64,000 bases of DNA from contig NC_013894.1 in the NCBI RefSeq assembly GCF_000025605.1, positions 357,529 through 421,528 on the forward strand. The letters run 5' to 3'. Made by a program: the position numbers and the translations under genes. The DNA is from Thermocrinis albus DSM 14484 (lineage in GTDB: Bacteria; Aquificota; Aquificia; Aquificales; Aquificaceae). The notes beneath the pieces are model-generated. The model worked only from the letters and a program-made list of their open reading frames with translations, was not told where the DNA came from and searched no databases. Shown one piece after another: positions 2,804 through 63,456 of this stretch (positions within the stretch are counted from its first letter, which is position 1; each line of letters starts with the position of its first letter).

Positions 2804-2810
2804 ACTGCCA

Positions 2811-11124: not shown

Positions 11125-11708
11125 TTTAAGAGCATCTCCAACAGGTGAAGACTACTGGGTGTGTTCATATTGAAGAAGGACTGCATCAGCGGATCTATGG
11201 AAAGGACATGGGTGGTGGGTATCGTTATGTACCCTACCTGCTCTAAAAGTTTGGTGAGCCTTCTGTCACCCTCCCTTATGAATCTCTCTACATGCGGTAG
11301 CGTCTTTACGGGGTAAACACCCGGAAAGGGATAGAGCTTTCCACCCACTTTGAAGATGGTCACAAGATGGTCATGAGACATCTCCCAGAGATACAAAAGC
11401 AGGTGGGGTTTTACAAGAGGCATGTCGGCACACAGAATGACCACTTTTTTGCCTCGTGCCTCCTTCAGGGCAGTGTATACGCCAGCTAAGACCATCTGCT
11501 CTTCCATAAGATCCTCTACTAGTTCCACCTTTTCTATGAAACGGAACTTTTCTGTATCCTTAGCCACCACTACCACACGCCGGCACACAGGAAGGATGTT
11601 CTCTATGAGAAAGCTTATGGCAGGTTTTCCTCTTATGGGATAGAGGGTTTTATCACTGCCAAATCTCCTGCTCTGACCACCTGCCAGCACGAAGACTTCA
11701 TCTATCAT
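11112..11708 (-). CDS. mobA: Molybdenum cofactor guanylyltransferase
   Basis: Transfers GMP to molybdopterin to make the bis-MGD cofactor. The N-terminal VFVLAGGQSRRFGSDK is the nucleotide-binding signature with catalytic Lys, and LCADMP is the metal-binding Asp motif. 198 residues. With moaE/moaA at 43-45 kb and a MoaD-like protein at 55 kb it shows active molybdopterin/tungstopterin synthesis. ATGA-type overlap with mltD-like. Confidence 0.9.
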   Translation of the reverse strand: MIDEVFVLAGGQSRRFGSDKTLYPIRGKPAISFLIENILPVCRRVVVVAKDTEKFRFIEKVELVEDLMEEQMVLAGVYTALKEARGKKVVILCADMPLVKPHLLLYLWEMSHDHLVTIFKVGGKLYPFPGVYPVKTLPHVERFIREGDRRLTKLLEQVGYITIPTTHVLSIDPLMQSFFNMNTPSSLHLLEMLLKWLQ

Positions 11709-12634
11709 CTAACTATGAATTTGGCACCGTTATCCCACCTTATGACCTTTCTCTCTTCTTCAGGGTTAGCAGGAAGATACACGTACGCACCGGCAGGTAT
11801 CTTATCCGTCTTTATGTGGGGATTAAGATCGTAAAACACACTCTTTTGTATCTGTGCCTCCGTTATAAGATCCTTTACGGATGTATCTTCCTCAACCCTC
11901 TTTCTCACAACGCTTATACTGTCCACGCTTATGTCAAGACCGTACTTCTCTGGGAACCTAGCTAAGAGTAGTAAAGCCATGAAGGCAGGCACGTAGTTCC
12001 TTGTTTCCAAAGGGAGGAACTCTTTTGTCTGCCAAAAGTCTACACCACCGGTCCTGCTGAACACACATCCCTCACCACAGTTGTAGGCAGCTAAAGCCAG
12101 TTCCCAGTTTTTAAAGAAAGAGTAAAGATCCTTGAGGTAACGGGCCGCCGCCTCTGTGGACTTCTGTATGTCGTAGCGTTCATCCACTAAGTTGTCTACT
12201 CTGAGCCCATACCTGCGTGCGGTTTGAGGCATGAACTGCCACAGGCCTGCGGCTCCCGATCTGGAGACGGCAAAAGGATTAAAACCACTCTCTATGGCTG
12301 GCAGTAGGGCCAACTCTGGAGGTAAACCATGTTTTTCCAGTACGGGTTTTATGAGGGGCATGTAGTAGTTAGCTCTTTTGAGAGCATACTGGGTGAATCT
12401 TTTGTTGGAGAGGAAGTATCTTATGTACTTTCTTATCTCCTCTCTGTCAGGAACCTCTATCTGAAACTGGCGAGCTTCTTCCTGCAAGAAGCGTTCCTCC
12501 TCCTCCGAAAAGACCAACTGTCCACGTTGTAGAAAAACCGCATTGTCTTTGTCGGGATAGAGGGTCTGCCTCAGGGTAGGTGTACAGGAGGTGAGAAAGC
12601 ACGCCGTGAGGAACAGAAGTACCCCCTTTAGCAT
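11705..12634 (-). CDS. mltD: MltD-like membrane-bound lytic transglycosylase
   Basis: Cleaves peptidoglycan glycan strands. The lipoprotein signal LLFLTACFLTSC is at the N terminus. The SLT domain is in the middle: PAIESGFNPFAVSRSGAAGL with the catalytic Glu, LWQFMPQTARRYGL, and the later AAYNCGEG. A short C-terminal segment (YDLNPHIKTDKIPAG) resembles a LysM remnant. The ATG at 12634 is chosen because it starts the lipoprotein signal; the frame upstream runs back into nuoH. It starts 2 nt after the nuoH stop, so it is co-transcribed with nuo genes. 309 residues. Confidence 0.87.
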   Translation of the reverse strand: MLKGVLLFLTACFLTSCTPTLRQTLYPDKDNAVFLQRGQLVFSEEEERFLQEEARQFQIEVPDREEIRKYIRYFLSNKRFTQYALKRANYYMPLIKPVLEKHGLPPELALLPAIESGFNPFAVSRSGAAGLWQFMPQTARRYGLRVDNLVDERYDIQKSTEAAARYLKDLYSFFKNWELALAAYNCGEGCVFSRTGGVDFWQTKEFLPLETRNYVPAFMALLLLARFPEKYGLDISVDSISVVRKRVEEDTSVKDLITEAQIQKSVFYDLNPHIKTDKIPAGAYVYLPANPEEERKVIRWDNGAKFIVR

Positions 12635-12636
12635 GT

Positions 12637-13650
12637 CTACGCTAAGAGGTAGTATACCACAGCTGTTGCTACCACGTTTACGAGAGCGATAGGTAACATA
12701 ACCTTCCAACCTATCTCCGTTATGTCTTTGGCTTGAAATCTGGGTAAAGTCCAGTGGAGCCAAAGGACGAAGAAAACAAGACCAAAGGTTTTTATGAGGA
12801 ACCAAAGGTAAGGAGATAGTGGACCAAAGATGTGAGGCCCAGACCATCCACCAAAAAAGAGTATGACTCCTATAGCAGAGAGGGCCACCACGTTAAGGTA
12901 CCACTCTGCCAAAGGAAAAGCTCCGAAACGCATACCCCCGTACTCCACATTGTAGCCTGTCACCAGTTCTGCTTCCGCCTCCTGTATATCAAAGGGAACT
13001 CTCCCTGACTCGGCCAACATACAGAAGAGGTAAAGAACAAAGGCTACAGGCTGATACAGGATGAACCACACACCCCTTTCTACCTGAGCCTGCACTATAC
13101 CAGAAGCACTCATAGTACCCGCCAGTAGGATAACTCCTAAGACTGAGAAACCCAACACCACCTCGTAAGCTATCACCACAGCCGCTTTTCTCAGCGAACC
13201 TATGAAAGCGTACTTAGAGTTGGAAGCCCAACCGGAGAATATGGTTCCATAAACAGAAAGAGAACCAAAGGCAAACACCAAAAGAAGAGCTATGTTTACG
13301 TCTGCCACTACCGGTTTCACTTGATAACCAAAGATGGTGAAGGCCGGACCAAAGGGTATTACCGAGAAGAGTAGAAGAGAAGGAGTAAGGGCCATCACCA
13401 CGGCAAGGTAATAAACCACCCTATCTGCGTTTCTGGGAATCACGGACTCTTTGGTGAGGAGCTTAAGGCCGTCCGCCAGAGGCTGGAGGAGACCGAAAGG
13501 ACCCACCAACTTAGGACCCATACGTGCCTGTATGTGGCCCGCCAGCTTACGCTCAAACCACGTAAGGTATGCACCTAAACCCATAAACACACCTACCGCC
13601 ACCAGTACCTTTACGAAAGTCACTATCAGATCAACTACCCAACTACTCAT
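12637..13650 (-). CDS. nuoH: NADH-quinone oxidoreductase subunit H
   Basis: Membrane subunit of complex I forming the quinone-binding channel with NuoB and NuoD. Eight or so membrane spans. Family segments include ERKLAGHIQARMGPKLVGPFG, LLQPLADGLKLL, ESGRVPFDIQEAEAELVTGYN and a C-terminal RFQAKDITEIGWK. 337 residues, full length. ATGA overlap with nuoCD; nuoI-N and nuoE-G are not in the window. Confidence 0.96.
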   Translation of the reverse strand: MSSWVVDLIVTFVKVLVAVGVFMGLGAYLTWFERKLAGHIQARMGPKLVGPFGLLQPLADGLKLLTKESVIPRNADRVVYYLAVVMALTPSLLLFSVIPFGPAFTIFGYQVKPVVADVNIALLLVFAFGSLSVYGTIFSGWASNSKYAFIGSLRKAAVVIAYEVVLGFSVLGVILLAGTMSASGIVQAQVERGVWFILYQPVAFVLYLFCMLAESGRVPFDIQEAEAELVTGYNVEYGGMRFGAFPLAEWYLNVVALSAIGVILFFGGWSGPHIFGPLSPYLWFLIKTFGLVFFVLWLHWTLPRFQAKDITEIGWKVMLPIALVNVVATAVVYYLLA

Positions 13651-15404
13651 CTGTCCGTTTCCCCCACCACAGGATCTAGGCTTCCCAGTAACGCTATAGC
13701 ATCCGCTATAGTCCTACCCTCTATCAGTTTAGGAAATATGGAGAGGTTATAAAGGGCTCCGGACCTTATCCTCAGACGGTAGGGTTTGGAGCCACCCTTA
13801 GAGTATATGTAAAATCCCAGCTCACCCCTTGGGTTCTCACCGCTGGCGTACACCTCACCTGGAGGTGCCTTCTCTCCGTGTACCACTATGTGGAAGTTTT
13901 TAACCATACTTTCTAAAGCGTTGAAGACCTCCTCCTTGGGGGCCATAACAGCGGGATGATCTGTGTTAAGGTAGGGTGCACTCTTAGGAAGTTTCTCCAG
14001 TTTCTGAACGCACTGCTCCACTATCCTCAGGCTCTGCCACATCTCCTCCATTCTCACCAAGTACCTGTCATATACGTCTCCCACCTCTCCCACCGGGATA
14101 TCAAAGTCCACCTCATCGTAGGCAGCGTAAGGTTCCAGCTTTCTTATGTCATAAGGAACACCTGAGCCTCGCGCAACCGGACCGGTAAGTCCGTAGTTAA
14201 AAACATCTTCGCGCGTTATTATACCCACCTCCTTCGTTCTACGTAGCCATATTCTGTTTCTTGTAAGGAGCTGATGATACTCCCTGAGTCTGTTAGGGAA
14301 GTCTTTCACAAAGGCTTTAACCACATCCAAGGTTCCCTCTGCCAGGTCATAATGGACCCCTCCTATTCTGAGAAAGGCGGATGTGAGTCTTATACCTGCG
14401 TTACCCTCTATGATGTCCATTATCTTCTCTCTTTCCCTGAAGGCGTATAGGAAGACGGTGAGGGCCCCCAGATCCAACGCACCAGTTCCCAGCCACAGAA
14501 GGTGGGAGTTTATCCTCTGTAGTTCGGCAAACATAGTCCTTATGTAACGAGCCTTCTCTGGAACCTCCACCTTCAGGAGCTTCTCCACCGCTGTGACGTA
14601 AGCAAGCTCGTTACATATGGCGGATATATAGTCCATTCTGTCGGTGTAAGGAAGAAACTGAAAGTAGTAGAGGTTCTCGGCAATTTTCTCCATCCCTCTG
14701 TGAAGCTGACCCAGTATGATGTCACACTGAACCACCTGTTCTCCATCCAGATCAAAGAGGAACCATATAGTACCGTGAGTTCCTGGATGAAGGGGACCCC
14801 AGTTGAGAACCAACTGGGCCTTCTTCTGGAGACGGCTCTTCTCAGTCCTCTCAAGGTCCTCTAGCGTTGCCACCTTTGTGTGTAAGAGTTCAAAATCATG
14901 GCTGGGAGGGTCTGTTCTACCCTGCAACACTTCCGTTAAAGAGGGAAGTTCCACTTCAGGGAAACCACCCAGCGGGAAGTCCTTCCTTAGGGGATGGTAA
15001 GGATAACCCTCCCACATGAACATACGTCGTAGGTTTTCGTGTCCCTCAAACTCTACGCCGAACATGTCGTAAGCTTCCCGCTCTGCCCAGCGAGCGCATG
15101 GCCAGAGTTTTTCCACAGAAGGTAGCTTGCCGTGTTTGGCCCAGCTCTTGACAATAACTCTCTCGTTGTCGTCCGGGTTATACAGAATGTACACACCCAG
15201 AAACCTGTCTTCCTTTTCGGGAAAGTCTATACAGGTAAAGTCTATGAAGTGACGGTAGCCCTCTTTTTCCTTGAGATGTTTAAGAAAAGAAAGAAGTAGA
15301 TCTTTGCTTACGTGAAAGCTGACTGTGTGCTCACCCCATTCTACCTGCACATCCTTAAACACCTGTTTTACTCTGTCTACCGTGGCCCTGTTCATCCAGG
15401 GCAT
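13647..15404 (-). CDS. nuoCD: NADH-quinone oxidoreductase subunits C and D, fused
   Basis: Peripheral-arm complex I protein. Residues 1-180 are NuoC (ending with the HPLRKDFPLGG signature); about 205-585 are NuoD, starting VLNWGPLHPGTHG with HRGMEK and the quinone-site Tyr/His region. The fusion matches the E. coli type. 585 residues. Three nt follow nuoB. The C terminus DPVVGETDR is the normal NuoD end. Confidence 0.95.
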   Translation of the reverse strand: MPWMNRATVDRVKQVFKDVQVEWGEHTVSFHVSKDLLLSFLKHLKEKEGYRHFIDFTCIDFPEKEDRFLGVYILYNPDDNERVIVKSWAKHGKLPSVEKLWPCARWAEREAYDMFGVEFEGHENLRRMFMWEGYPYHPLRKDFPLGGFPEVELPSLTEVLQGRTDPPSHDFELLHTKVATLEDLERTEKSRLQKKAQLVLNWGPLHPGTHGTIWFLFDLDGEQVVQCDIILGQLHRGMEKIAENLYYFQFLPYTDRMDYISAICNELAYVTAVEKLLKVEVPEKARYIRTMFAELQRINSHLLWLGTGALDLGALTVFLYAFREREKIMDIIEGNAGIRLTSAFLRIGGVHYDLAEGTLDVVKAFVKDFPNRLREYHQLLTRNRIWLRRTKEVGIITREDVFNYGLTGPVARGSGVPYDIRKLEPYAAYDEVDFDIPVGEVGDVYDRYLVRMEEMWQSLRIVEQCVQKLEKLPKSAPYLNTDHPAVMAPKEEVFNALESMVKNFHIVVHGEKAPPGEVYASGENPRGELGFYIYSKGGSKPYRLRIRSGALYNLSIFPKLIEGRTIADAIALLGSLDPVVGETDR

Positions 15405-43357: not shown

Positions 43358-43780
43358 ATGTTTCCACGTGTCTATCTGGGTGTGGAATGGTTCGGACCAG
43401 AGGCCATATTCTCCCACTACACACCTCCTCCTGATTGTGGAGCCAGCTGTGTTTTTCTGGGTATAGCTAGATCCGCTCCGGAAGATGGGGATGTGACAGA
43501 ACTCCACTACGAAGCTTTTCACGAGATGGCCCTGAAGGTTATGGAGGAGATAAGAAAGGAAGCGCTGAAAAAGTTTGGCGTTAGAGAAATCTTCGTACAT
43601 CATAGGCTGGGGGTGGTGAAAGTAGGCGAGGCATCCTTCTTGGTGGCTGTCTTCGGTGGACACAGAGAGGAGACTTTCGGAGCATGTAGGTACGTGGTGG
43701 ATGAGGTGAAAAAGAGGGTACCTATATGGAAGAAGGAGGTTTTCTCTGACGGTACAGGAAAGTGGGTGATGGGTGCATGA
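43358..43780 (+). CDS. moaE: Molybdopterin synthase large subunit
   Basis: Converts precursor Z to molybdopterin with MoaD-thiocarboxylate. Family motifs: [49 protein letters not shown], and [17 protein letters not shown], which holds the catalytic Lys residues. 140 residues. The adjacent moaA overlaps by ATGA. The matching MoaD may be the small protein at 55.1 kb. Confidence 0.93.
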
Positions 43781-44775
43781 TTAGAGACAGTCTGGGTAGG
43801 GAGCTGAGAGATCTTCGTATATCGGTAACCGACCGATGTAACTTTCGGTGTAGTTTCTGTATGCCCGACGGACATCAGTACGAGTTTTTTCCTAAGGAAG
43901 AGATCCTCACCTTTGAGGAAATAACACGCGTGGTGAAAGTGTCCAAAAGTTTGGGTGTAAGAAAAGTGAGAATAACGGGTGGAGAACCCCTTCTTAGGAG
44001 AGATATAGAGAAGCTCATCTCTATGATAAGCCCTTTTGTGGAGGATGTGAGTCTTACCACCAACGGTTTTCTACTTAAGGAGAAGGCCAGTTCTTTAAAA
44101 GAGGCAGGACTCAAGAGGGTTACTGTAAGTTTTCATTCTCTTAGAGATGAGGTGTTTTCAGCATTGGTAGGTAGAAGCGTGAGGGTTGCCCATATTCTGG
44201 AAGGTATAGAGGAGGCCATCAAGGTAGGCCTTACACCGGTGAAGGTGAACGTATGCGTAGTGAAGGGAATAAACGACGACGAGATCCTGTCTATAGCTAA
44301 GTTTTTCAAAGATATGGGCGTTGTGGTAAGGTTCATAGAGTTTATGGATGTGGGGAATCTGAACGGTTGGTCTTTGGATAAGGTGGTGTCCGCACAGGAA
44401 ATAGTAAACACAATAGCCCAACACATGAAGATAAGACCCATAGGGAGAAGTTACAGGGGAGAAACGGCCTTAAGATATGTGTACGAAGATGATGGGAGAG
44501 AGTTCGGTGTTATAGCCTCTGTAACTCAACCTTTCTGCGGAGACTGTAACAGATTGAGGCTTACCGCAGATGGTAAACTCCTCACGTGTCTGTTTGCTAC
44601 AGATGGTCACGACATTAAAAAGCTCCTCAGGATGGGTGCTTCCGACGAAGAACTGGCAGAGTTTATAGTGGAGGTTTGGCAAGGAAGGAAGGACAGGTAC
44701 TCGGAGGAGAGGCTCCTCCTCCTTCAGAAGGGTAGTGTACCCAGAAAGGTGGAGATGTTTAAAGTAGGTGGCTAG
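43777..44775 (+). CDS. moaA: GTP 3',8-cyclase
   Basis: Radical SAM enzyme, first step of molybdenum/tungsten cofactor synthesis. N-terminal cluster CNFRCSFC (C-x3-C-x2-C), SAM site [13 protein letters not shown]-terminal cluster [18 protein letters not shown] (C-x2-C-x13-C), and the C-terminal Gly-Gly that enters the active site. The ATG at 43777 overlaps the moaE stop. 332 residues, complete. Confidence 0.95.
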
Positions 44776-47574: not shown

Positions 47575-47633
47575 TGTAATAAATCTTACAACAGTAGTAA
47601 TTTTTCATACCATAAATTGTTATCTTTCTAACA
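47575..47633 (+). promoter_or_regulatory. Two NifA-type activator sites before nifI1
   Basis: TGT-N10-ACA at 47575-47590 and again at 47618-47633 (the latter inside the perfect inverted repeat TTGTTA-N6-TAACAA). Starts are 43 bp apart, about four helical turns, and the nearer site ends about 31 bp before the -24 element. Confidence 0.65.
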
Positions 47634-47662: not shown

Positions 47663-47678
47663 TGGCATGTTTTTTGCA
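47663..47678 (+). promoter_or_regulatory. Sigma54 promoter of the nifI1-nifB operon
   Basis: TGGCATGTTTTTTGCA, with the invariant GG (47664-47665) and GC (47676-47677) exactly 10 bases apart. Expected start near 47689; nifI1 follows with AGGAGGTG. Confidence 0.85.
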
Positions 47679-50084: not shown

Positions 50085-50300
50085 ATGCCGTACTCTATAA
50101 AGAAAGACCTTTGCATCTCCTGTTATGCGTGTGAAGATCAATGCCCTACCAAAGCCATTTCTCATAACGAGGAAGGTGAGTTCTTTATAGATCCTACCGT
50201 TTGTGTGGAGTGTGAAGGTTTTTATGAGGAACCTCAGTGTCTTGCTATATGTCCCATAGATGGTTGCATAGTAAAGCTATCGGAGGTGGAGGAGGTGTAA
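50085..50300 (+). CDS. fdxN: 2[4Fe-4S] ferredoxin, FdxN type
   Basis: 71 residues with two cluster motifs: C-x2-C-x2-C-x3-CP (CISCYACEDQCP) and C-x2-C-x8-C-x3-CP (CVECEGFYEEPQCLAICP), the asymmetric pattern of nif-linked FdxN. Likely electron donor to NifB or nitrogenase. Three nt after nifB. Confidence 0.9.
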   Translation: MPYSIKKDLCISCYACEDQCPTKAISHNEEGEFFIDPTVCVECEGFYEEPQCLAICPIDGCIVKLSEVEEV

Positions 50301-51050: not shown

Positions 51051-52001
51051 TTAGGAATAATAACCTTTACATATCTTTGACATCTCTCCTATTAGTTGAG
51101 GGTCAAATGGAAGATAAGTATCTTTTGATTTAGATAATCCGTCTATGTGTATTCTGGATTTGTTGGTAAAAGCATTTGTGCCTATGATAGGTTTGTTGTC
51201 ATGTACTTTTATGCCTGTCATATTGACAAACTCTCTTATTTTTTCATACAATTTTCTTATATCAATACCTGTATTTATTCCCAAAATTACTTCCAAATAG
51301 ATCACAACTTCCTCTGTTGGGGTAATACCACATCTTTCTCCTAACCCTAAGAGGGAAGAATTTACAAACTTCGCTCCACTCATAACTGCCACTACTGCGT
51401 TAGCTGTTGCCATACCAAAGTCGTTATGAAAATGAACCTCTACATCTGTGATGTTAGAAAGATCTTTTACCACCTTTGCAACACTCAAAGGATTCATAAC
51501 ACCAACTGTGTCCGACAGTCTTACTCTATCCGCTCCATGAGTCTTTACCAATTCAACAAACTCTAAAAGAAAGTTATAGTCCGCTCGAGAAGCATCCTCA
51601 AGCCCTACCGACAGATAAAGACCTTTTTCTTTACAGCATGGAACAATTTCTTTTGCAAGACCCTTAAGGTATTCTCTACTTTTTCTCAACTTTTTCTCTA
51701 TCATGATATCGGATACAGGAAAGGCCACTTCCACCTTCTTTACATTACAGGAAAGGGAATACTCTATATCCTTTATGTTTGCTCTGTTCCATACTATAAC
51801 TCTGTCGGCGTGCTCACCCTTCGTAAGCTTTCTTATGTATTCTCTCTCTTCTTCACCTTTTGCCGGGACCCCTACTTCTATTTCGTAAAAGTTTAAAGAT
51901 ACCAAATGGTTAAATAAGGCGTATCTTTCCTCAAGGGATAGTTCCAACGAAGGAGACTGTATACCTTCTCGTAAAGTAGTGTCAGTTATATAAACTCTCA
52001 T
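51051..52001 (-). CDS. nifV: Homocitrate synthase (NifV-like)
   Basis: Condenses acetyl-CoA and 2-oxoglutarate to homocitrate, the organic ligand of FeMo-co. ITDTTLREGIQSPSLEL holds the metal Asp and catalytic Arg, VEVHFHNDFGMATANAVVAV the His-x-His metal ligands, and SLLGLGERCGITPTEEV the conserved core. At 316 residues it lacks most of the C-terminal extension of typical NifV (about 380). Last gene of the moaD-aor operon, overlapping the nifS-like gene by 4 nt. Confidence 0.87.
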   Translation of the reverse strand: MRVYITDTTLREGIQSPSLELSLEERYALFNHLVSLNFYEIEVGVPAKGEEEREYIRKLTKGEHADRVIVWNRANIKDIEYSLSCNVKKVEVAFPVSDIMIEKKLRKSREYLKGLAKEIVPCCKEKGLYLSVGLEDASRADYNFLLEFVELVKTHGADRVRLSDTVGVMNPLSVAKVVKDLSNITDVEVHFHNDFGMATANAVVAVMSGAKFVNSSLLGLGERCGITPTEEVVIYLEVILGINTGIDIRKLYEKIREFVNMTGIKVHDNKPIIGTNAFTNKSRIHIDGLSKSKDTYLPFDPQLIGEMSKICKGYYS

Positions 52002-53104
52002 AACTTGGAACCTTCAGATATAACTTTTATTTTTTCAGCTAGATCCTTAAGGTAACTGAGTGGTGTTAAAGGTGGTATCCTTATAAACAGAATATCCTGA
52101 AAATCCCCTATTTTTACCTTTGTTATCTTTTTTACATCGTTTAGCATACATGGAGAGGAGGTTCCCAAAAGGAATCCATGTTTTTCTAACAAACTGACAA
52201 ACATCTCAGCATCTGTTTTTATACCGTAAGAGAACAACCCCAAAGCTTTTCTATTTGGGTTATAGAGAGCTGGAAGATGTATATATTCTGTTAATAGATT
52301 GTCGGCTTCTTTGAGAGAGAGGACAATAGCATTCTTGTTATCAGTTAAAAACTTCAGTGAGTACCCAAGAGAAAAGATACCAAACAAGTTTCCTTCTCCT
52401 GCCCTTATTCCCCTTTCTTGTATACCACCTTCTATAAGGGGCCTTAACCTTACTCCCTTTTTAACATATAGGGCTGATATTCCTTGAGGAGCTAACAAAA
52501 AGGGTCCATCTAAGGTTGCTATATCTATCTCTCCAATAGGGATATAGTCTGTAGGATAATAAAGCCCCCATAGGTCTACGTGACATATGACATTTGGATT
52601 GATGCTCTTTACTTTCCTAACTATGGAAGCTACATCTCTTATGGTGGCCGTCTCTCTGCATACAGCTCCTATAGTAAACAGCAATGTATCCTCGTTTATA
52701 ACATTTCTTAAATCTTCTACGTCAAACTCTCCCCGTGAATCAGTCTTTATATACACCACACCGAACCCAAACAGTCTTTGCATACTTTTGATAGGATGAT
52801 GGATGGAGATATGTTCCCAATCTGTTGTTACTATGTTCCCTTTCCTTGTGTTTAACAAGCTGTTAAATAAAACACCTTTTATAGCTAAGTTGTTGCTTTC
52901 AGTTGAACTTGAGGTGAATATCACCTCCGAGTCAGAACATCCTAAGAACTGTGCCACACTTCTCCTTGACCTTACAAGTATTTCTTTAGATCTCATTGAC
53001 ATCATATTTGAAGATGACGGATTTAAAAAGAAGTACATCAAATTTTGTTTCTGTTCGTCCAACATATCTGGAAGAGGTGCAGAAGAATAAGCATCAAGTA
53101 TCAT
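51998..53104 (-). CDS. NifS-like protein lacking the PLP lysine (probable non-catalytic or altered desulfurase)
   Basis: Fold type I cysteine desulfurase family by layout: LDAYSSAP start, STESNNLAIKG, WEHISIHHP (PLP-stacking His), HVDLWG (PLP Asp), GISALYVKKG, GGIQERGIRAGEGN and a Cys at 319 in GTSSPC matching the persulfide loop. The Schiff-base Lys segment (G-H-K-L-H-A-P-K-G in NifS) reads GPFLLAPQG, so H and K are P201 and F202. The PLP-contacting Gln is also lost. 368 residues from the ATG at 53104, which has GAGGAG upstream. Could be a scaffold or sulfur carrier. Confidence 0.75.
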   Translation of the reverse strand: MILDAYSSAPLPDMLDEQKQNLMYFFLNPSSSNMMSMRSKEILVRSRRSVAQFLGCSDSEVIFTSSSTESNNLAIKGVLFNSLLNTRKGNIVTTDWEHISIHHPIKSMQRLFGFGVVYIKTDSRGEFDVEDLRNVINEDTLLFTIGAVCRETATIRDVASIVRKVKSINPNVICHVDLWGLYYPTDYIPIGEIDIATLDGPFLLAPQGISALYVKKGVRLRPLIEGGIQERGIRAGEGNLFGIFSLGYSLKFLTDNKNAIVLSLKEADNLLTEYIHLPALYNPNRKALGLFSYGIKTDAEMFVSLLEKHGFLLGTSSPCMLNDVKKITKVKIGDFQDILFIRIPPLTPLSYLKDLAEKIKVISEGSKL

Positions 53105-54890
53105 GAATAAACTCCTCAAGAGAAAGTCTCTTTAGAGTCTCCTGTGTAGGTACACCATCTTTGTCCCATCCAAAAGCGGTGTAAAACTCTTCTATCATAC
53201 TTTTCAGTTCATCATCTGTTGTTATGTATCCTCTTTCTGTAGCCTCTTCTCTTATTCTTCTGGGTAATGTATCATCATTCTTAGAAAAACCTTCGCGTAT
53301 GTTAAACAGTCTTTCTAGCGTGTATATACGTTCTCCTATTATATTAAGATCAGACATGTCTAAATGCCAGTCCATCAATGCGTTAACCATATTTAGTATG
53401 CTGTCGTTCAGCTTGAGACCCACCACCCTCTCCGCGCTCAGACAGTAGATTATACTGTTCACTACACTGGTCCACACGGCCAGCTCTTTTGCCACTGATC
53501 CTTTGTTGGTTGGATCTCCAAGAGGTGTTATGTTGTTCTCCTCCATGCCCGGCCTTATATCACAGTGAACTGGTCCTCTGTTGGACACAGCATAACCTAT
53601 GGCTTGCGTCTTTACCGCACGTGGAGAGTGTCCCGCTATCTCCATACCCTTTACAGTCATTACAAAATCCCTCCCCACACCCAGTATATCTGAGGCTCTT
53701 TCTGATCCTTCAGCTAAACAATCACCTATACCTTCCCTGTATGCAATCTTTTTCAGCAGACGTGCGACCGACTCTGTGTTCCCAAATTTCATATCCAAAC
53801 CGTCTAAGTCATCCTTACTTAACAACCCTTTTTCGTAACACTCCATTACCCAAGCTACCACACCGCCTGCCTGTATCTGTCCTAACCCTAACTCATCTGT
53901 TAAACGATCTAAGTCTATGAGTGTATCTAAATCTCTGTTACCTATTATGGTACCCATGGCAAAGATCCCTTCGTACTCTGGTCCTACTGTGAAGGTTTCT
54001 TTACCCACCGTATACTTACCGCAGGGAACTATACATCCCATACACGCTACGTCCTTAATGACTTTACTCCTCAAAGCTTCTCCACTGATTTTTTCTGCAT
54101 CATCAAAGGTCTCCCTTTGCCAATTATAAGAAGGTAAAGCTCCCAAATGTTGAAGATGAAGTACGCCAGCGGCAGTTCCAAACATTGCGAGATTCTTCAC
54201 TCCAGGATGTTGATAAACAGCTTTTTCAAACTCCTTAACGAAGGTAAGCAACCTTTCTGGATTTACGGGTCTCACAAGCTTAGTACCCCTTACGGATATA
54301 GCCTTGACCTTCTTGTAACCAAGTACCGCACCCATGCCACCGGTTCCTACGGCCCTTAGATCCGATATTAAGCACGCATACTTCACCAAGTTCTCACCGG
54401 CGGGGCCTATTACCAAACAACCAACATCTCTACCAAACTTTTCTCTTATCATTTTCTGAGTAAAACTAGTAGTACATCCCTTCAGGTAATCTGCAGGATT
54501 AAAGTAAACTTTATCATCTTCTATGTGTATATGAACCCATTCATCACTGCATCCCATAATTATCACACCATCGTATCCTGCATACTTGAGTTCATTACCG
54601 AAGGTACCTCCACAAAAGCCCTTTGTGAAGCCATTAGTTTGTGGTGATTTGGATACTACACAGAACTTGGACGACATGGGTACAAGAGTTCCGTTAGCAG
54701 GTCCTGTATTTATAATTACCGGATTATGTGGTGAGAGAGGATCTACACCTCTCTTTGTGAGTTTGTGTAGAAGATACACTCCTATACCATTACCTCCTAA
54801 GAATTTCTCTACGGTATCTTGAGATATATCGTAGGTTTCTGTGGTCCTACTGGTTAGATCTATGAGTAAGTACCTCTTCCAGTAGCTCAT
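53094..54890 (-). CDS. aor: Tungsten/molybdenum aldehyde:ferredoxin oxidoreductase
   Basis: AOR-family enzyme that oxidises aldehydes to acids and reduces ferredoxin, using a bis-pterin W or Mo and a [4Fe-4S] cluster. Cluster ligands: C-x2-C-x3-C at 283, 286 and 290 (CMGCIVPC) and a distal Cys near 483 (IYCLSAERV). PEYEG near 305-309, GGTFGNELKYAGYDGVIIMG and GTGGMGAVLGYKKVKAI are family motifs. 598 residues, normal size. The start at 54890 is set by the family N terminus MSYWKRYLLIDL. Overlaps the ferredoxin gene by 4 nt. Confidence 0.93.
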   Translation of the reverse strand: MSYWKRYLLIDLTSRTTETYDISQDTVEKFLGGNGIGVYLLHKLTKRGVDPLSPHNPVIINTGPANGTLVPMSSKFCVVSKSPQTNGFTKGFCGGTFGNELKYAGYDGVIIMGCSDEWVHIHIEDDKVYFNPADYLKGCTTSFTQKMIREKFGRDVGCLVIGPAGENLVKYACLISDLRAVGTGGMGAVLGYKKVKAISVRGTKLVRPVNPERLLTFVKEFEKAVYQHPGVKNLAMFGTAAGVLHLQHLGALPSYNWQRETFDDAEKISGEALRSKVIKDVACMGCIVPCGKYTVGKETFTVGPEYEGIFAMGTIIGNRDLDTLIDLDRLTDELGLGQIQAGGVVAWVMECYEKGLLSKDDLDGLDMKFGNTESVARLLKKIAYREGIGDCLAEGSERASDILGVGRDFVMTVKGMEIAGHSPRAVKTQAIGYAVSNRGPVHCDIRPGMEENNITPLGDPTNKGSVAKELAVWTSVVNSIIYCLSAERVVGLKLNDSILNMVNALMDWHLDMSDLNIIGERIYTLERLFNIREGFSKNDDTLPRRIREEATERGYITTDDELKSMIEEFYTAFGWDKDGVPTQETLKRLSLEEFIHDT

Positions 54891-55114
54891 GGCTTGTACT
54901 CTATAGCACCTGGCGAACAAAATTCCACGCAGACGTAATCTTTACAGGATTCACAGGATGATAGTAAGTAGGCCTCTGGTTTGTTCCCTATATCTGTAAG
55001 GATAATCAAAGAGGAGTATCTCGGGTTGAATCCACCCGTTTTCATAAAAGAGCAAGCCATCATACACCTCCTACATCCAATGCACAGTTCCAAGTTCACC
55101 CTTATCACTATCAC
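54887..55114 (-). CDS. Ferredoxin-like 4Fe-4S protein of the AOR operon
   Basis: 75 residues with eight Cys in two groups: CIGCRRCMMAC (C-x2-C-x2-C-x3-C) and CESCKDYVCVEFC (C-x2-C-x4-C-x3-C). It resembles the small iron-sulfur partner of AOR or the first domain of electron-transfer subunits in W-enzymes. Probably carries electrons from AOR. Overlaps both neighbours by 4 nt, so stoichiometric expression is likely. Confidence 0.88.
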   Translation of the reverse strand: MIVIRVNLELCIGCRRCMMACSFMKTGGFNPRYSSLIILTDIGNKPEAYLLSSCESCKDYVCVEFCSPGAIEYKP

Positions 55115-55365
55115 CCTCCTGCAGTAGGTAAGGATAGAACTATCTCATCCTCTTCTTTTAGATCTTCAAAATCTATGCCCACAAGTTTCCCATTAACTAT
55201 GATCAAAACACCTTCCCACACATCACCATCTTTAAAGAACACTTCCTCCATCCCATAGAACTTGGCAAGGGATCGGATCAGTTCTCTTACACTCCTCACA
55301 CCATACACCTCAACGGTGTCATGCCCCACACGGTAAGCAAGATATCCCAATAGCTTTACCTTCAT
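55111..55365 (-). CDS. MoaD/ThiS-family ubiquitin-like sulfur carrier
   Basis: 84 residues, beta-grasp: MKVKLLGYLAYRVGHDTVEV start, VNGKLVGIDFEDLKEEDEIVLSLPTAGG end. The C-terminal Gly-Gly is the thiocarboxylate site of MoaD. Could serve a dedicated tungstopterin for the neighbouring AOR. First gene after the leftward sigma54 promoter; the predicted leader is only about 7 nt. Confidence 0.85.
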   Translation of the reverse strand: MKVKLLGYLAYRVGHDTVEVYGVRSVRELIRSLAKFYGMEEVFFKDGDVWEGVLIIVNGKLVGIDFEDLKEEDEIVLSLPTAGG

Positions 55366-55383
55366 CTTCCAAAAATTTATTTT

Positions 55384-55398
55384 GCAAAAAACATGCCA
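55384..55398 (-). promoter_or_regulatory. Sigma54 promoter of the moaD-aor-nifV operon
   Basis: Minus strand TGGCATGTTTTTTGC: GG at 55397-55396, GC at 55385-55384, spacing 10. The same 16-mer core occurs at the nifI1 promoter, tying AOR to the nif regulon. Confidence 0.85.
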
Positions 55399-55437: not shown

Positions 55438-55475
55438 TGTTATAAAGCTGACACAGATGTGTAAGAAACATGACA
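55438..55475. promoter_or_regulatory. Shared NifA-type activator sites between nifA and moaD
   Basis: TGT-N10-ACA at 55438-55453 and 55460-55475, starts 22 bp apart (two helical turns), lying between the two divergent sigma54 promoters. One activator cluster probably drives both, including nifA itself. Confidence 0.65.
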
Positions 55476-55492: not shown

Positions 55493-55508
55493 TGGCACAA
55501 AATTTGCT
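55493..55508 (+). promoter_or_regulatory. Sigma54 promoter of nifA
   Basis: TGGCACAAAATTTGCT with GG at 55494-55495 and GC at 55506-55507 (N10). Expected start about 55519. Suggests positive autoregulation or control by the second activator at 35-36.5 kb. Confidence 0.75.
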
Positions 55509-55536: not shown

Positions 55537-57117
55537 ATGGGTTCTGGTGCTGTGGATCGTTTTTTGAGGAAGGAGATCCAACTTCTTTATAACCTCTCGC
55601 GAGAGTTAAGCAGTATGAGTAAAGCACCTAACGCTATAGCTGATGATGTGGTCCGCCTGCTAAGTGATCTGGATGGTGTAGAAAGGGTGGTGTTTTATAT
55701 AAAGGAGGAAGATGACAAGATCTCCGTTATCTCAAGTGTAGGTGCTAGGGAAAAGGTAACTTTAAAAAGGAAGGAAGGTGTTGTGGGTCACATATTTGAG
55801 AAAGGGTATCCAGTTGTACTAAAATCCTTAAGTGAAGAACCTCTATTCCTTAATAAGCTGAAGAGAGAGAATCTTGAAGAAATTATTTTCATAGGTGTAC
55901 CAATTAAGTACGAAGGTAGAGTGGTGGGTGTTTTAACAATAGATAAGAGAAAGGATTCCTTACCTTCAGACTACTTTGTAGAGCTTCTTACTATGATATC
56001 CAATCTTATAGGGAACTACATAGGTACCTATGTAAATATAAAGAGGAAAGAAGAATTTTACAAAAGAGAGATAGCGGCGCTAAAAAGTGATCTCATAAAG
56101 ATCTTTACAACAGAGGGTTTTGTAGGTGTAAGCAAGGCTTACTACGATGTAATAAAAAGAGCCATGAAAGTTGCCAATTTAGATGTTACTGTGATGATAA
56201 GAGGCGAATCTGGTACGGGAAAGACAACACTTGCCAAACTAATACATTATGCTTCCCAACGCAGGAATGGTCCCTTTGTGGAAGTAAACTGCTCTACAAT
56301 ACCTGTAGAGCTTCTGGAGGCTGAACTTTTTGGTTACGAAAAGGGAGCCTTTACGGGTGCTCACACCACAAAACCGGGAAAAGTGGAAATAGCAAACGGA
56401 GGAACTATCTTTTTTGATGAAATAGGTGACATAAGCCCTAGTGTACAAACTAAGTTACTTAGATTCCTCCAAACGAAAGAGTTTGAGAGGTTGGGTAGCA
56501 ACAAGACCATGCGATCAGATGTCAGGATAATCGTAGCCACTAATAGAAATCTTGAAGAGGAAGTATCGCTAGGCAGATTTAGAGAGGACCTGTATTACAG
56601 GATAGCTGTGTATTCCATATACATACCACCGTTGCGAGAAAGGAAAGAGGACATACCTGTACTTGTAGATTATTATCTATCTAAACTAAATAAAGTCGTT
56701 GGTAAAGAAAAGCTAAGCATAAAACCTGATGCTTTGGAAGTTCTGTTATCCTGCTCATTTCCGGGGAACGTAAGGGAGCTTGTCAACTGTTTAACCAGAG
56801 CAGCTATCAATTCAGATAACGGTGTTATAGAAGCCCATCATCTGGCCTGTATATCTTCCGGCATGTGTTATGCACATTTAAGAAAAAAACTGGAAATTCA
56901 GTCAACGGCGGAAAAGAGGGTTGATGTACCACAAGATACAATCCAAAAGGAAAACAAGATTGAAGAACATGGTAATAAGAGTGAAAGGGATATTATCATA
57001 GAAGCTCTTGAAAAGTGTGGTTATGTTCAGGCAAAAGCAGCACGCTACTTAGGAATGACCGTAAGGCAGTTGAACTATAGAATAAAAAAGTACGGAATAA
57101 AGATAAAGAAAATATAA
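55537..57117 (+). CDS. nifA: Nitrogen fixation activator NifA
   Basis: GAF domain (about 15-170), AAA+ domain with Walker A GESGTGK (223-229) and GAFTGA (270-275), and C-terminal Fis HTH (LGMTVRQLNYRIKKYGIKIKKI). Four Cys at 406, 418, 438 and 444 are spaced C-x11-C-x19-C-x5-C, close to the C-x11-C-x19-C-x4-C of oxygen-sensitive rhizobial NifA, so direct oxygen or redox sensing is likely. No nifL-like gene is adjacent. The ATG at 55537 follows GGGGGTG; a GTG at 55528 is the alternative. 526 residues. Confidence 0.93.
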   Translation: MGSGAVDRFLRKEIQLLYNLSRELSSMSKAPNAIADDVVRLLSDLDGVERVVFYIKEEDDKISVISSVGAREKVTLKRKEGVVGHIFEKGYPVVLKSLSEEPLFLNKLKRENLEEIIFIGVPIKYEGRVVGVLTIDKRKDSLPSDYFVELLTMISNLIGNYIGTYVNIKRKEEFYKREIAALKSDLIKIFTTEGFVGVSKAYYDVIKRAMKVANLDVTVMIRGESGTGKTTLAKLIHYASQRRNGPFVEVNCSTIPVELLEAELFGYEKGAFTGAHTTKPGKVEIANGGTIFFDEIGDISPSVQTKLLRFLQTKEFERLGSNKTMRSDVRIIVATNRNLEEEVSLGRFREDLYYRIAVYSIYIPPLRERKEDIPVLVDYYLSKLNKVVGKEKLSIKPDALEVLLSCSFPGNVRELVNCLTRAAINSDNGVIEAHHLACISSGMCYAHLRKKLEIQSTAEKRVDVPQDTIQKENKIEEHGNKSERDIIIEALEKCGYVQAKAARYLGMTVRQLNYRIKKYGIKIKKI

Positions 57118-57241: not shown

Positions 57242-57288
57242 TGTCATATTCATTACAACTCCTTGTAAGTTTTGTCCTTTTTCTTACA
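57242..57288 (+). promoter_or_regulatory. Two NifA-type activator sites before nifH
   Basis: TGT-N10-ACA at 57242-57257 and 57273-57288, starts 31 bp apart (three turns), centred about 65-95 bp before the -24 element of the nifH promoter, the usual distance for NifA loops. Confidence 0.7.
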
Positions 57289-57342: not shown

Positions 57343-57358
57343 TGGCATCTTGTTTGCA
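57343..57358 (+). promoter_or_regulatory. Sigma54 promoter of nifHDK
   Basis: TGGCATCTTGTTTGCA, GG at 57344-57345 and GC at 57356-57357 with N10. Expected start about 57369; ribosome site AGGAGGTGG before nifH. Confidence 0.9.
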
Positions 57359-59696: not shown

Positions 59697-59714
59697 TTTA
59701 TGGAGGTAATCGCC

Positions 59715-60458
59715 ATGGGTATACATCATGAGCTAAACATAAAAGATCACCTTGAGTGTTTTAGAAATGATGAATTTAGGAATATGATCGCCAACAAGCG
59801 AAAGAACTTTGAAGATTGGGTAGGCGAAGAGAAGGTGAAAGAAGTGGCAGAATGGACAAAGACATGGGAGTACAGAGAACTGAACTTTAAGAGGGAAGCC
59901 ATCTCCATAAACCCCGCAAAGGCATGTCAACCTCTGGGCGCGCTTCTGTGCGCCCTTGGTTTTGAAAGAACCCTCCCCTTCTCTCACGGTTCCCAGGGTT
60001 GTGTGGCCTATTTCAGAACTCACATGGCAAGACACTTTAAAGAGCCTGTACCTATGGTTTCCACTTCCATGACAGAAGATGCCGCAGTATTTGGTGGCTT
60101 AAACAATATGCATGAAGGACTCCAGAATGCCATAGCGCTCTATAAACCTAAGATGATAGCTGTCAGTACCACATGTATGGCAGAGGTGATCGGTGATGAC
60201 CTCAACAGCTTTATAACAACAGCAAAAGAGAAGGGGTTAATACCTGAGGATTTCCCCATATGTTTTGCTCATACACCGTCCTTCGTAGGATCCCATATAA
60301 CTGGTTACGATAATATGATGAAAGCTATCCTTCAGCATATGACATCTTACTTCGAAAAGTACGGAGTTGATAACATAGACAAATACGATGAAAACGGAGA
60401 GTTCTATGAGGAGGGTGGTTTATTAGGCTGGCTCCAGAAAGGTAAAGGAGGTGATTAA
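59715..60458 (+). CDS. nifK: Nitrogenase MoFe protein beta chain, N-terminal half (split nifK)
   Basis: 247 residues covering domain I of NifK. All beta P-cluster ligands are here: C71, C96, C154, and the Ser at 189 in TPSFVGSH. The protein ends after [14 protein letters not shown] with an acidic 35-40-residue tail ([12 protein letters not shown]) and [11 protein letters not shown]. The last codons form a full Shine-Dalgarno sequence for the next gene. GGAGG precedes the ATG at 59715. Normal NifK is about 460-520 residues in one chain. Confidence 0.9.
60446..60453 (+). promoter_or_regulatory. Full-length ribosome site for the second nifK half
   Basis: AAAGGAGGTGA at about 60444-60454 inside the end of the first half, 6-8 nt before the ATG at 60460. 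It shows that the second half is translated from its own start. Confidence 0.8.
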
Positions 60459-60459
60459 T

Positions 60460-61353
60460 ATGAGTGCGGGTAGAGTAAATATCATACTAGGTTTTCATAC
60501 ATACTTAGAGGATTATAAAGAGGTAAGAAGGATAGTGGAAAAGTTTGGGCTAGAGTGCATAGTTCTCTCTGATCCTTCCGAAAATCTAAACTCTGGTCTC
60601 ACTGGTGATTACAAACTGTACTACGGTGGCACCCCCCTTAAGGATATATACAGAGCCAAATCTTCTATGGCTACCATAGTCTTCCAGAAGTACTCTACCG
60701 AAAAGACCAGAGAGTACATAGAGAAAGAGTGGAAACAGCCTACTTATGTGGTAAGACCTTATGGCATACAGGGAACGGATGAGTTTTTAATGCTACTTTC
60801 CAAACTCTCTGGAAATCCTGTACCAGAAGAACTTGAACGCGAGAGACAGTTGCTCCTGGACGCCATAGCGGACTCTTATTACTGGATACACGGCAAGAGA
60901 TTTGCGCTGTGGGGAGATCCGGACTTCGTTTACGGACTTACATCTTTCCTCTTAGAGTTGGGAGCAGAGCCTGTTCACATTTTGAGCACTAACGGTAACG
61001 AAGAGTGGGCGGAAGAGGTTAAGGAGCTCTGTTCGAAGTTTGATAATGGAAAGTACGCACAGTTATTCCCCGGAAAGGACCTTTGGCATATGAGAAGTCT
61101 TCTGTTTACGGAACCTGTCGATTACATGATAGGTACCTCCTACGGAAAGTACCTCTGGAGAGATACGGGTACTCCTCTCATACGTATCGGTTATCCTATC
61201 TTTGACAGGCATCATCTTCACAGATACGGCATCCTATTCTACAAGGGTGCTCTCAACATGCTCGTATGGATAGTGAACTCCATACTGGATGAAGTAGACA
61301 GAAGAACAATAGGCATTGCCACTACAGACTATAGCTTTGATCTCATCAGGTAA
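60460..61353 (+). CDS. nifK: Nitrogenase MoFe protein beta chain, C-terminal half (split nifK)
   Basis: 297 residues covering domains II-III of NifK: VNIILGFHTYLEDY start, TDEFLMLLSKLSG, WIHGKRFALWGDPDFVYGL, PVHILSTNGNEEW, GKDLWHMRSLLFTE, RIGYPIFDRHHLHRY, NSILDEVD and ATTDYSFDLIR end. The match starts exactly where the interdomain linker of one-chain NifK lies. Reading frame differs by one from the first half. Both halves look intact and conserved, so a two-chain beta subunit is likely. Confidence 0.9.
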   Translation: MSAGRVNIILGFHTYLEDYKEVRRIVEKFGLECIVLSDPSENLNSGLTGDYKLYYGGTPLKDIYRAKSSMATIVFQKYSTEKTREYIEKEWKQPTYVVRPYGIQGTDEFLMLLSKLSGNPVPEELERERQLLLDAIADSYYWIHGKRFALWGDPDFVYGLTSFLLELGAEPVHILSTNGNEEWAEEVKELCSKFDNGKYAQLFPGKDLWHMRSLLFTEPVDYMIGTSYGKYLWRDTGTPLIRIGYPIFDRHHLHRYGILFYKGALNMLVWIVNSILDEVDRRTIGIATTDYSFDLIR

Positions 61354-61358
61354 ATAAG

Positions 61359-61928
61359 ATGAGTGTCGTAGAGAGGTTAAAAAGATATATAGAAGAGGGC
61401 CTCGTTGCGGAACACACCTATAAGGTGGGAGAGGATCTGAGTTTTGAAAAGGGGGTTTATGTGGTAAAGGAGGGGGTCATAGAGCTATTCACCTTCAAGA
61501 GAAAAGGTAAACAGGTACTGGATCTCCTCTTTAAGGGGGATGTAATAGGCTTTCTATTGAGGAATACTTCCCTTACCAATTACAAGGCTAGGCCACTCAC
61601 CCCCTCCACCCTCTTCTACATCAAGGAGGACGCGCTTATCAAAATAGGAGAGAAGGAACCGCACCTGGCCCTCGATATCTTTGCCTCTTTACTTTCAAAG
61701 CAGGCCTATCTCTACAATGTACTCACCATAGTCTTTGCAGGTGATGCAACAGAGAAGATAAGAGACCTCATGTGTTTACTTGAAAGGCGCGCGGAAGAAA
61801 AAGGTACATATCTTACCCTTAGGAAGAGCCAAATAGCAAGTATAACAGGACTAAGTTATGAGCATGTTGTAAGAAAGATGAAGTGTATAAGAATAAAGAA
61901 TAAAAACGGGAGGATAAGACTATGGTGA
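61359..61928 (+). CDS. Crp/Fnr-family regulator in the nif operon
   Basis: 189 residues: cyclic-nucleotide-type beta-roll (about 20-110) and winged helix (LRKSQIASITGLSYEHVVRKMKCI). The N-terminal Cys cluster of Fnr is absent, and the cAMP-binding Arg/Glu motif is not visible, so ligand is unknown (2-oxoglutarate or redox are guesses). It sits 5 nt after nifK and overlaps the next gene by 7 nt, so it is expressed with nitrogenase and may feed back on it. Confidence 0.78.
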   Translation: MSVVERLKRYIEEGLVAEHTYKVGEDLSFEKGVYVVKEGVIELFTFKRKGKQVLDLLFKGDVIGFLLRNTSLTNYKARPLTPSTLFYIKEDALIKIGEKEPHLALDIFASLLSKQAYLYNVLTIVFAGDATEKIRDLMCLLERRAEEKGTYLTLRKSQIASITGLSYEHVVRKMKCIRIKNKNGRIRLW

Positions 61929-62383
61929 TAAAAAAGGAGGACATAGATCTTGGTGAGGAAGTATTAAAAGAGATAGTGCGGCAAGTAAGAGCTTACGATA
62001 CATACGGAACATGGGAGAAGAGGAAGGATGAAGATATACTTAAGGAGTTTCTCAAGACATCTTCAAAACAGATCGCACATGCAGGAGGGTCCTGTAGTCT
62101 GGACCCAAGAGCTATGCTTAAACTTCATGCTTATTTCAAAGCGTTAGGTGTTATCATAGAAAGACTTTCAGGTTACCTAACTTCCGCAGTGATAAACATA
62201 GACCATGAAGGAAATGGAACCGTTATTCTGTACGCTGGCAGACTAATTCTGATAAATAAAAGCATAAGGGATGCCAATAACTTTGGTTTCAAATCTACAG
62301 ATAACATCAAACAGGAAGCGGAGAAGTTGATAAACAAAGCTTTACAACTTATAGAAAAGTATGAAGAGGTTTGTAAGATATGA
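61922..62383 (+). CDS. NifX-associated protein (DUF269)
   Basis: 153 residues. YDTYGTWEKRKDEDILKEFL, AYFKALGVIIERLSG, NIDHEGNGTVILYAGRLILINKSIRDANNFGF and a C-terminal LINKALQLIEKYEEV match the DUF269 family found beside nifX in nif clusters. Its role in FeMo-co handling is unclear. ATGA-type overlap with the DegT-like gene. Confidence 0.85.
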   Translation: MVIKKEDIDLGEEVLKEIVRQVRAYDTYGTWEKRKDEDILKEFLKTSSKQIAHAGGSCSLDPRAMLKLHAYFKALGVIIERLSGYLTSAVINIDHEGNGTVILYAGRLILINKSIRDANNFGFKSTDNIKQEAEKLINKALQLIEKYEEVCKI

Positions 62384-63456
62384 GGAGGTTGATACCTTTC
62401 AAACCTTACGGTTATTCTAAGGAAGATATGATATCTGCCGTTGAGGCTATGGGTCATCCTTACTGTTTCTCGGGACTGAGAAGAAAGGAATTAGAAGATT
62501 CTTTCTGTCAGTACAGTGGCAGAAAATACGCCGTTGCCACACGTGATGTCGTTCCTGGCCTTTTGGCTCTTCTTGAGTACTTAGGTTTATCGTACGGAGA
62601 CACGGTGGCCTACACTCCTCTCTCCTTAGCTCCTCATTTTGCTAAATACACCAAGTTTATGGGACTAAACTCTGCTTACGCAGATGTAGAGAGGTGGTTC
62701 TTTAACGTTGATGTAAAAAGACTGTCCAACGTAATAACATCGTATAAGCCAAAAGTTCTTATAGTAAACAATTCTCTTGGTATACCTGCAGATTGGGATG
62801 CTGTAAGAGAACTCTTAAAAGGAACAGGTATATTTCTGATAGAAGACTCTAGAGAGACGCTTTTCAGCGATTATAAAGGGCGCCCTGCAGGCTCTTTGGG
62901 TGACGTTTCCTTCTTGGCTTTTTCTCCCAACTCTGTGCTGAGGGGTTACGGAGGAGTAATACTAACCGACGACGCACTTATTTACAAAAGAATCAGAGAG
63001 AAAGTGGAACCTATGGACGATATAATGGCTTCCCTTCTTATCTCCCAAACCAAAAGTCTGGAAGAGAGGATAAATATAAGAAGGGAGCTTGCGCAACTTT
63101 ACTCCCAGTTGCTGTCAAACATGGAAGGTATGAAACCTCAGTTTTTCCCTAAATACGTAAACAAACCTTGTTGGTCATATATGTGTGTTCATTTAGCAAA
63201 AAGATACGGAAGGGATGCAGTAGACAGTATCGTAGAACTAATGTGGGACGATGGTATAGAAACTCTAAAGTATCCTGTGTCACAGGATATACAGGAAGGT
63301 AAAAGTATGCCTCACCTACATATATCTCATGAGGTAAGTACGAGAGCCATACTGTTGCCTCTTCATGAGGATATGGACGAGGAGGACGTGTACTTTGTCT
63401 GTGAGAGGTTTAAGGATTATGTGATACAGATAGGAGCAGGTAGTGTAGATCATTGA
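62380..63456 (+). CDS. DegT-family PLP-fold protein lacking the Schiff-base lysine
   Basis: 358 residues resembling the DegT/DnrJ/EryC1 aminotransferase fold: [27 protein letters not shown] start, [29 protein letters not shown], then [15 protein letters not shown]. The normal Lys of the S-F-x3-K-x4-GEGG motif is Asn (N184), and the Glu of GEGG is Tyr. The PLP-phosphate Asp (D156) is kept. Located between DUF269 and nifE inside the nif operon, an unexpected partner. A structural, chaperone-like or altered-chemistry role is inferred. Confidence 0.7.

Follow-up and report, generated by a model that had tools for sequence, protein, structure and literature searches.

An aldehyde:ferredoxin oxidoreductase operon within the nitrogen fixation gene cluster of Thermocrinis albus

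The AOR operon and its association with nif

Why a nitrogen fixation (nif) gene cluster should carry an aldehyde:ferredoxin oxidoreductase (AOR) is the question raised by a 64,000-nucleotide stretch of DNA (the window), positions 357,529-421,528 in the single-contig genome (1,500,577 bases) of Thermocrinis albus DSM 14484. Nif is encoded by T. albus and not by T. ruber (PMC12780486). The AOR operon lies at window positions 51051-55398 on the minus strand and is composed of five genes in the order MoaD-like, 2[4Fe-4S] ferredoxin, AOR, NifS-like and NifV, in agreement with the genes, order, strand and coordinates given for a leftward operon in a preliminary description of the locus. The ends of adjacent genes overlap by 4-11 bases, indicating that the five genes form one operon, and they are presumably co-transcribed.

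A sigma54 (-24/-12) promoter with an exact match to the consensus, TGGCATGTTTTTTGC, is present at 55384-55398 (minus strand), about 18 bases ahead of the moaD-like ATG and leaving a short leader. The same 15-mer forms the promoter of the nifI1 operon at 47663-47677 (plus strand), so the identity of the two promoter cores claimed previously extends over all 15 bases. Further sigma54 promoters are located on the plus strand ahead of nifA (55493-55507), divergent to the AOR operon, and ahead of nifH (57343-57357). The stretch separating the AOR and nifA promoters contains a pair of TGT-N10-ACA activator sites of the NifA type (55438-55453 and 55460-55475), and this pair, judged from its position, can serve both the AOR operon and nifA, bearing out the earlier suggestion of shared activator sites. 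Paired sites are also found at the nifI1 promoter (47575-47590 and 47618-47633) and at the nifH promoter (57242-57257 and 57273-57288).

The pattern TGGCAYN5TTGC occurs exactly four times in the 64 kb against an expectation of 0.12, a count reached in none of 100 shuffled sequences, and each of the four sites precedes a gene or operon of the nif cluster (nifI1, the AOR operon, nifA and nifH). Genome-wide (1.5 Mb) there are 10 such sites, four of them in the nif cluster. Three close TGT-N10-ACA pairs are present in the window, each at most 130 bp from a TGGCAYN5TTGC promoter, and 0 of 300 shuffles gave even one such combination. A chance origin of the promoter matches is ruled out by the shuffles and the whole-genome count. 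All five genomes with sufficient upstream sequence (the window and the related loci L039, L040, L043 and L042) have an AOR operon with its own sigma54 promoter and one or more activator sites, with at least two TGT-N10-ACA sites in L040, L043 and L042 and one in L039; the L043 promoter, AGGCATAAAAATTGC, was found by eye, and the L041 contig begins too near the AOR operon for a promoter to be called. The promoter architecture strongly supports placing the AOR operon in the nif regulon, where it would be controlled by NifA.

The distribution of the gene follows that of nitrogenase. In a survey of 136 Aquificota genomes this type of AOR is found in 6 of the 10 genomes bearing nifD versus none of the other 126 (Fisher p = 2.7e-8, a value not corrected for kinship among the genomes). 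By the terms of the preliminary description, absence of the linkage in all relatives would have refuted it; this is not the case, since the AOR is located within the nif cluster in every one of the six Aquificales genomes with a largely complete nifD, across two families and three layouts. Of the remaining nifD carriers, G123 and G126 (another family, f5, which we take to be Desulfurobacteriaceae-type) are without this AOR, as are G057 and G079, in which the nif genes are broken. Loci L044 and L045, from two Aquificales genomes, show such decay, with nifHDK reduced to remnants broken in several frames and no AOR present. The AORs of family f5 (L012-L021) are of a longer, lower-scoring type, and no nifD was found in those genomes. 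The possibility that the AOR is a general Aquificae gene is ruled out, this type being confined to nif-bearing Aquificales.

In the first layout (the window, L039 and L043) the AOR operon is divergent from nifA with nifH directly past nifA. In the second (L040) nifHDK is inverted, and in the third (L041 and L042) the AOR gene follows a ferredoxin gene, with the moaD-like and small-ferredoxin genes placed behind nifB. The parts of the AOR module are thus rearranged among the six genomes, yet always within nif. L041 is a fragmented metagenome-assembled genome (MAG) classed as Aquificaceae, and its cluster may reflect transfer or a binning error because it resembles that of L042, a member of the Hydrogenothermaceae.

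These arrangements bear on the idea that a mobile AOR cassette landed in a nif cluster, gained a promoter and was passed on without functional need. Such cassettes of MoaD and AOR appear mobile (PMC1779556), and the linkage is seen in only two deep branches, with a related cluster shared by G034 and G042. Against this, the identity among the nif-linked AOR systems has fallen to 53-74% and the reading frames are still full-length, the promoters are retained, the reshuffled parts have never been separated from nif, and the AOR is absent where nif has decayed. Inheritance without function is therefore considered very unlikely.

Outside the Aquificales, a genome scan that used two peptide patterns, and may therefore have missed cases, yielded 78 AOR loci with no nif genes in the flanks taken; a weak NifB-like match in L060 was dismissed. 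Of 65 genomes searched with nifD (mostly Bacillota), 47 carry AORs, and no AOR-nif operon is present among the matches listed. The nearest AORs are 11-16 kb from nif (G427 and G240) with unrelated genes between, and so do not form an operon with it. The AOR module itself is already known. No description of an AOR in a nif context was found in the open-access literature searched, and the same applies to its conserved place in the nif regulon, the pairing with a nif-specific ferredoxin and the changed pterin motifs described below.

The enzyme and its partner proteins

The AOR large subunit (WorL; 53094-54890, minus strand; PF01314 3e-117, PF02730 5e-68) is a full-length two-domain protein scoring 229 bits for PF02730 and 392 bits for PF01314 (cut-offs 30 and 27). 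The closest solved structure is Pyrococcus furiosus AOR (PfAOR; PDB code 1aor, E 1.6e-107), aligned across residues 3-593 of 597, and PfAOR numbering from this alignment is used throughout. The six nif-linked AORs group together in a single, fully supported clade, and the nearest sequences outside it are from Clostridia, with approximately 42% identity and no nif neighbors. The [4Fe-4S] cysteines Cys-288, Cys-291, Cys-295 and Cys-494 are present in all six.

The aldehyde-oxidizing active-site set of AORs consists of Thr-243, Glu-313, Tyr-427 and His-448 (PMC13328260). Thr-243, Glu-313 and His-448 are kept in 6/6 sequences. Tyr-427 is replaced by histidine in all six, a residue also found in 19 of 91 compared AORs and common to the sister clades. 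Two further positions set the group apart. Asp-343 is glycine in all six and aspartate in each of the 91 others compared, and Asp-489 is asparagine in all six and in 4 of those 91. Both DxxGL(D/C) motifs deviate in all six, motif 1 reading DELGLG and motif 2 NSIIYC in the window or NSIVYC in L041. These motifs, which presumably contact the pterin in 1aor, are not among the criteria of the Pfam families PF02730 and PF01314. The protein is likely to bind pterin, though in an altered way. The catalytic residues Thr-243, Glu-313 and His-448 and the cluster cysteines are kept and two pterin-motif positions are changed, indicating that the nif-linked AOR is probably an active enzyme whose cofactor pocket, in which W or Mo would be held, has changed.

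In its full-length two-domain form, the cluster cysteines and Thr-243, Glu-313 and His-448, the protein resembles the class I/II WOR enzymes, typified by PfAOR with its WorX and WorS partners, and it shares with them a MoaD-like gene and a small ferredoxin within the operon (PMC13328260). It differs in its predicted nif control, the D343G and D489N replacements and the 75-amino acid ferredoxin. The same three adjacent gene types occur in the MoaD-AOR-ferredoxin cassettes of Iyer et al. (2006), where the MoaD-like protein was inferred to take part in making the tungsten cofactor; in the passages of that study found, the cassettes are linked to cofactor genes and no nif context is given (PMC1779556).

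The first gene of the operon (55111-55365, minus strand) encodes a MoaD/ThiS-like β-grasp protein similar to WorX, with a moaD_arch match of 3.5e-9 that is under the cut-off. Its structure model (predicted local distance difference test (pLDDT) score 89) has the β-grasp fold, with Z scores of 12.7 for SAMP1 (root mean square deviation 1.9 over 82 residues) and 11.4 for MoaD (PDB code 1jwb). The C-terminal GG is present in five of the six proteins, including that of the window, and is GE in L043. MoaD-like genes also adjoin non-nif AORs at L051 and L079, and they are a usual feature of AOR operons (PMC1779556; WorX in PMC13328260). Because such genes accompany AORs generally, the MoaD-like protein belongs to the normal equipment of AORs and is no nif-specific device. 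The earlier suggestion that it could supply a private pterin is for the same reason not specific to nif, and the terminal GG is lost in one of six proteins.

The 75-amino acid 2[4Fe-4S] ferredoxin (54887-55114, minus strand) is of the AOR partner ferredoxin or small-subunit type. Its eight cysteines are invariant in the six genomes, and related proteins adjoin many unrelated AORs. A different ferredoxin ties the enzyme to nif in two genomes. In L041 and L042 a gene for ferredoxin III, the nif-specific type (TIGR02936; 87.4 and 92.9 bits, respectively, cut-off 80.55), is directly before that of the AOR and ends at most 10 bases from its start. This adjacency is the best single hint to the function of the AOR.

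The NifS-like protein (51998-53104, minus strand) scores 155 for TIGR03402 against a cut-off of 531 and falls outside the cysteine desulfurase NifS family as defined there. The lysine binding pyridoxal phosphate (PLP), SGHK in NifS, is absent in all five proteins and the catalytic-loop cysteine is kept, so that the term degenerate nifS used previously is apt. A structure model (pLDDT 56) was too poor and is not used. The loss of the lysine together with an arginine replacing asparagine (NREIG/CRET motif) is shared with a housekeeping Aquificales homologue, and on these grounds an older lysine-free protein is the probable ancestor of the nif copy, whose degeneration would have begun outside the nif cluster. 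The window copy shares 36-40% identity with the housekeeping homologues, and four of the five nif copies have a rewritten lysine loop. Seven PDB entries labeled cysteine desulfurase (9wep to 9wfy) are close to the housekeeping protein, and some have lysine at the PLP position; the nif copy is like the housekeeping protein in the lysine loss and the arginine for asparagine and differs in being much diverged. Housekeeping proteins without the PLP lysine (TAHLMYGPKG or TGHYFYAPKG at this position) are encoded at L138 (1024-2262), L150, L151, L152, L156 and L157, and in L138, from T. albus, the gene adjoins that of an Mrp-type ATPase.

The partner proteins could also suggest a module for synthesis of the iron-molybdenum cofactor (FeMo-co), in which the AOR and the MoaD-like, NifS-like and Mop-like proteins would handle Mo/W, sulfur or the redox state and the redox function of the AOR would belong to assembly and not to catalysis. 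Mop/TOBE-like and MoaD-like proteins are encoded in the same cluster, and in the same gene row in L041 and L042; the retained cysteine of the NifS-like protein makes a sulfur relay possible, and the pterin motifs of the AOR are altered. However, a MoaD-like protein and ferredoxin beside an AOR are normal for non-nif operons, the NifS-like gene is missing from L042, and the L043 MoaD-like protein does not end in GG. A role in cofactor assembly is accordingly rated as quite improbable.

The last gene (51051-52001, minus strand; TIGR02660 6.3e-94) encodes a NifV-type homocitrate synthase with a C terminus shortened by about 60 amino acids, for which the TIGR02660 score is 315 bits, under the cut-off of 462.9. 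The core HMGL-domain motifs TLR, HxHNDFG and GLGER are invariant or almost so, suggesting that the protein is probably still NifV in function. NifV adjoins the AOR or is one gene off in 6/6 genomes, an arrangement that would suit a metabolic helper of N2-fixing cells, removing reactive aldehydes or reducing an acid with excess reduced ferredoxin, perhaps in connection with the homocitrate synthase step. The class I-III AORs known mostly detoxify or metabolize aldehydes (PMC13328260), and the nearest non-nif AORs are found among carbon-metabolism and transporter genes. In two genomes, though, nifV is on the strand opposite to the AOR, no pathway aldehyde is known in homocitrate synthesis, and electron transfer better explains the tie to nif and ferredoxin III, making a helper role rather unlikely.

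A possible role in electron supply to nitrogenase

The explanation favored here, tentatively and at somewhat less than an even chance, is that the nif cluster acquired an AOR module whose enzyme exchanges electrons of low potential with the nif ferredoxins, most likely supplying nitrogenase or FeMo-co assembly. An ordinary module of large subunit, small ferredoxin and MoaD-like cofactor protein would have entered the cluster in an ancestor of the diazotrophic Aquificales, come under the control of NifA and sigma54, and be expressed along with nitrogenase. The electron partners of the AOR would be the small ferredoxin of the module and, in L041 and L042, the adjacent ferredoxin III; the nif ferredoxins would most likely be reduced in this exchange, and the AOR would take the place of Fix and Rnf, which these cells lack. 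The donor would be an aldehyde or H2, and delivery would be to NifH.

None of the eight nif-bearing Aquificota genomes has an ETF/FixAB match or an RnfC match over the curated cut-off. A diazotrophic relative is likewise described without FixAB and full RnfC, the source of reduced ferredoxin there being left open with ferredoxin-NADP reductase as a suggestion (PMC12780486, 2026). A ferredoxin-reducing AOR under control shared with nif would fit this gap in electron supply. The earlier idea that the AOR could feed electrons to nitrogenase gains support from the ferredoxin III gene directly ahead of the AOR gene in L041 and L042, and also from the lack of FixAB and full RnfC, whereas the donor and the transfer remain proposals. 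Like FixABCX and Rnf, the AOR would be a nif-encoded and nif-regulated oxidoreductase reducing the ferredoxin of nitrogenase; it differs in consisting of unrelated proteins with unrelated chemistry.

Several points weigh against electron supply by the AOR. To our knowledge there is no source of aldehyde in an autotroph, and the housekeeping ferredoxin enzymes of the reverse tricarboxylic acid cycle could serve nitrogenase without an AOR. The nif-bearing G123 and G126 are without this AOR and also without FixAB and full RnfC; the absence of these complexes therefore does not force the use of an AOR. The chemistry of the enzyme may have shifted, given the two changed pterin-motif positions that are otherwise near-universal. 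Finally, ferredoxin III is not beside the AOR in four of the six genomes, three of which have no TIGR02936 match at all.

H2 would be a natural donor in H2-oxidizing Aquificae, and the three-subunit, NAD-linked AOR of Aromatoleum, a member of the same family, has a W-hydrogenase side activity in which H2 is oxidized at approximately 10% of the aldehyde rate (PMC9295118). For strains of Aquificae, N2 fixation at 70 °C, including fixation with H2, has been described, and either H2 or thiosulfate can sustain their growth (PMC6307999). The H+/H2 couple is calculated here as about -0.49 V at 80 °C, 1 atm and pH 7, low enough for reduction of ferredoxin by H2. A nif-dedicated AOR acting as a W- or Mo-pterin H2:ferredoxin oxidoreductase, using supplied or nitrogenase-evolved H2 to reduce the nif ferredoxin, can accordingly be envisaged, and is judged unlikely in this specific form. 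If true, it would be a further class of electron donor to nitrogenase besides Fix, Rnf and the 2-oxoacid:ferredoxin enzymes.

Electron supply by the AOR more broadly, if true, would bring a new enzyme family into nitrogenase electron supply and give a new physiological role to the AOR family, in which members of defined role are known from only five of 92 clades (PMC13328260). The AOR, nif-linked and probably nif-controlled, provides a specific candidate gene set for ferredoxin reduction in aerobic autotrophic Aquificales.

Other features of the nif cluster

The AOR operon is flanked at the nifV end by the convergent operon nifI1-nifI2-orf-nifB-ferredoxin-nifW-nifZ-mop, which stops 5 bases from the end of nifV and contains the second ferredoxin of the nif cluster (50085-50300, plus strand). 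At the opposite flank are nifA, followed by nifHDK. The nifA-type activator (55537-57117, plus strand) has GAF, sigma54-interaction and Fis domains. Open reading frames resembling moaE and moaA are located at 43358-44775, about 7 kb from the AOR operon, and the exact-pattern scan of the 64 kb gave no sigma54 site in their vicinity.

The nifK gene is in two parts, split at the same place in four genomes (window 59700-61353, L039, L040 and L043), and the C-terminal half has its own ATG and Shine-Dalgarno-like sequence. On the basis of the shared split place and these start signals, the split is a conserved gene fission and no sequencing error, as read from the DNA. A split NifK is also reported for Pampinifervens (PMC12780486), and nifK is intact in L041 and L042. 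In L043 nifD is present as two overlapping frames (10298-11786) with a frameshift near residue 305, and inspection by eye showed no start signal ahead of the second frame. In L042, a MAG, nifA (1721-3369) and nifE (13180-14555) are each present as two overlapping frames, owing either to errors of assembly or to true breaks in the genes.

A DegT/DnrJ-type PLP aminotransferase-like gene is kept within the nif cluster in the window (62380-63456), L039, L040, L041 and L043; we know of no nif role for such a gene. In all four Aquificaceae-type clusters (the window, L039, L040 and L043) a gene for a Crp/Fnr-type regulator (window 61359-61928) is placed between the C-terminal half of nifK and a NifX-associated gene, and in L043 this regulator gene is itself split.

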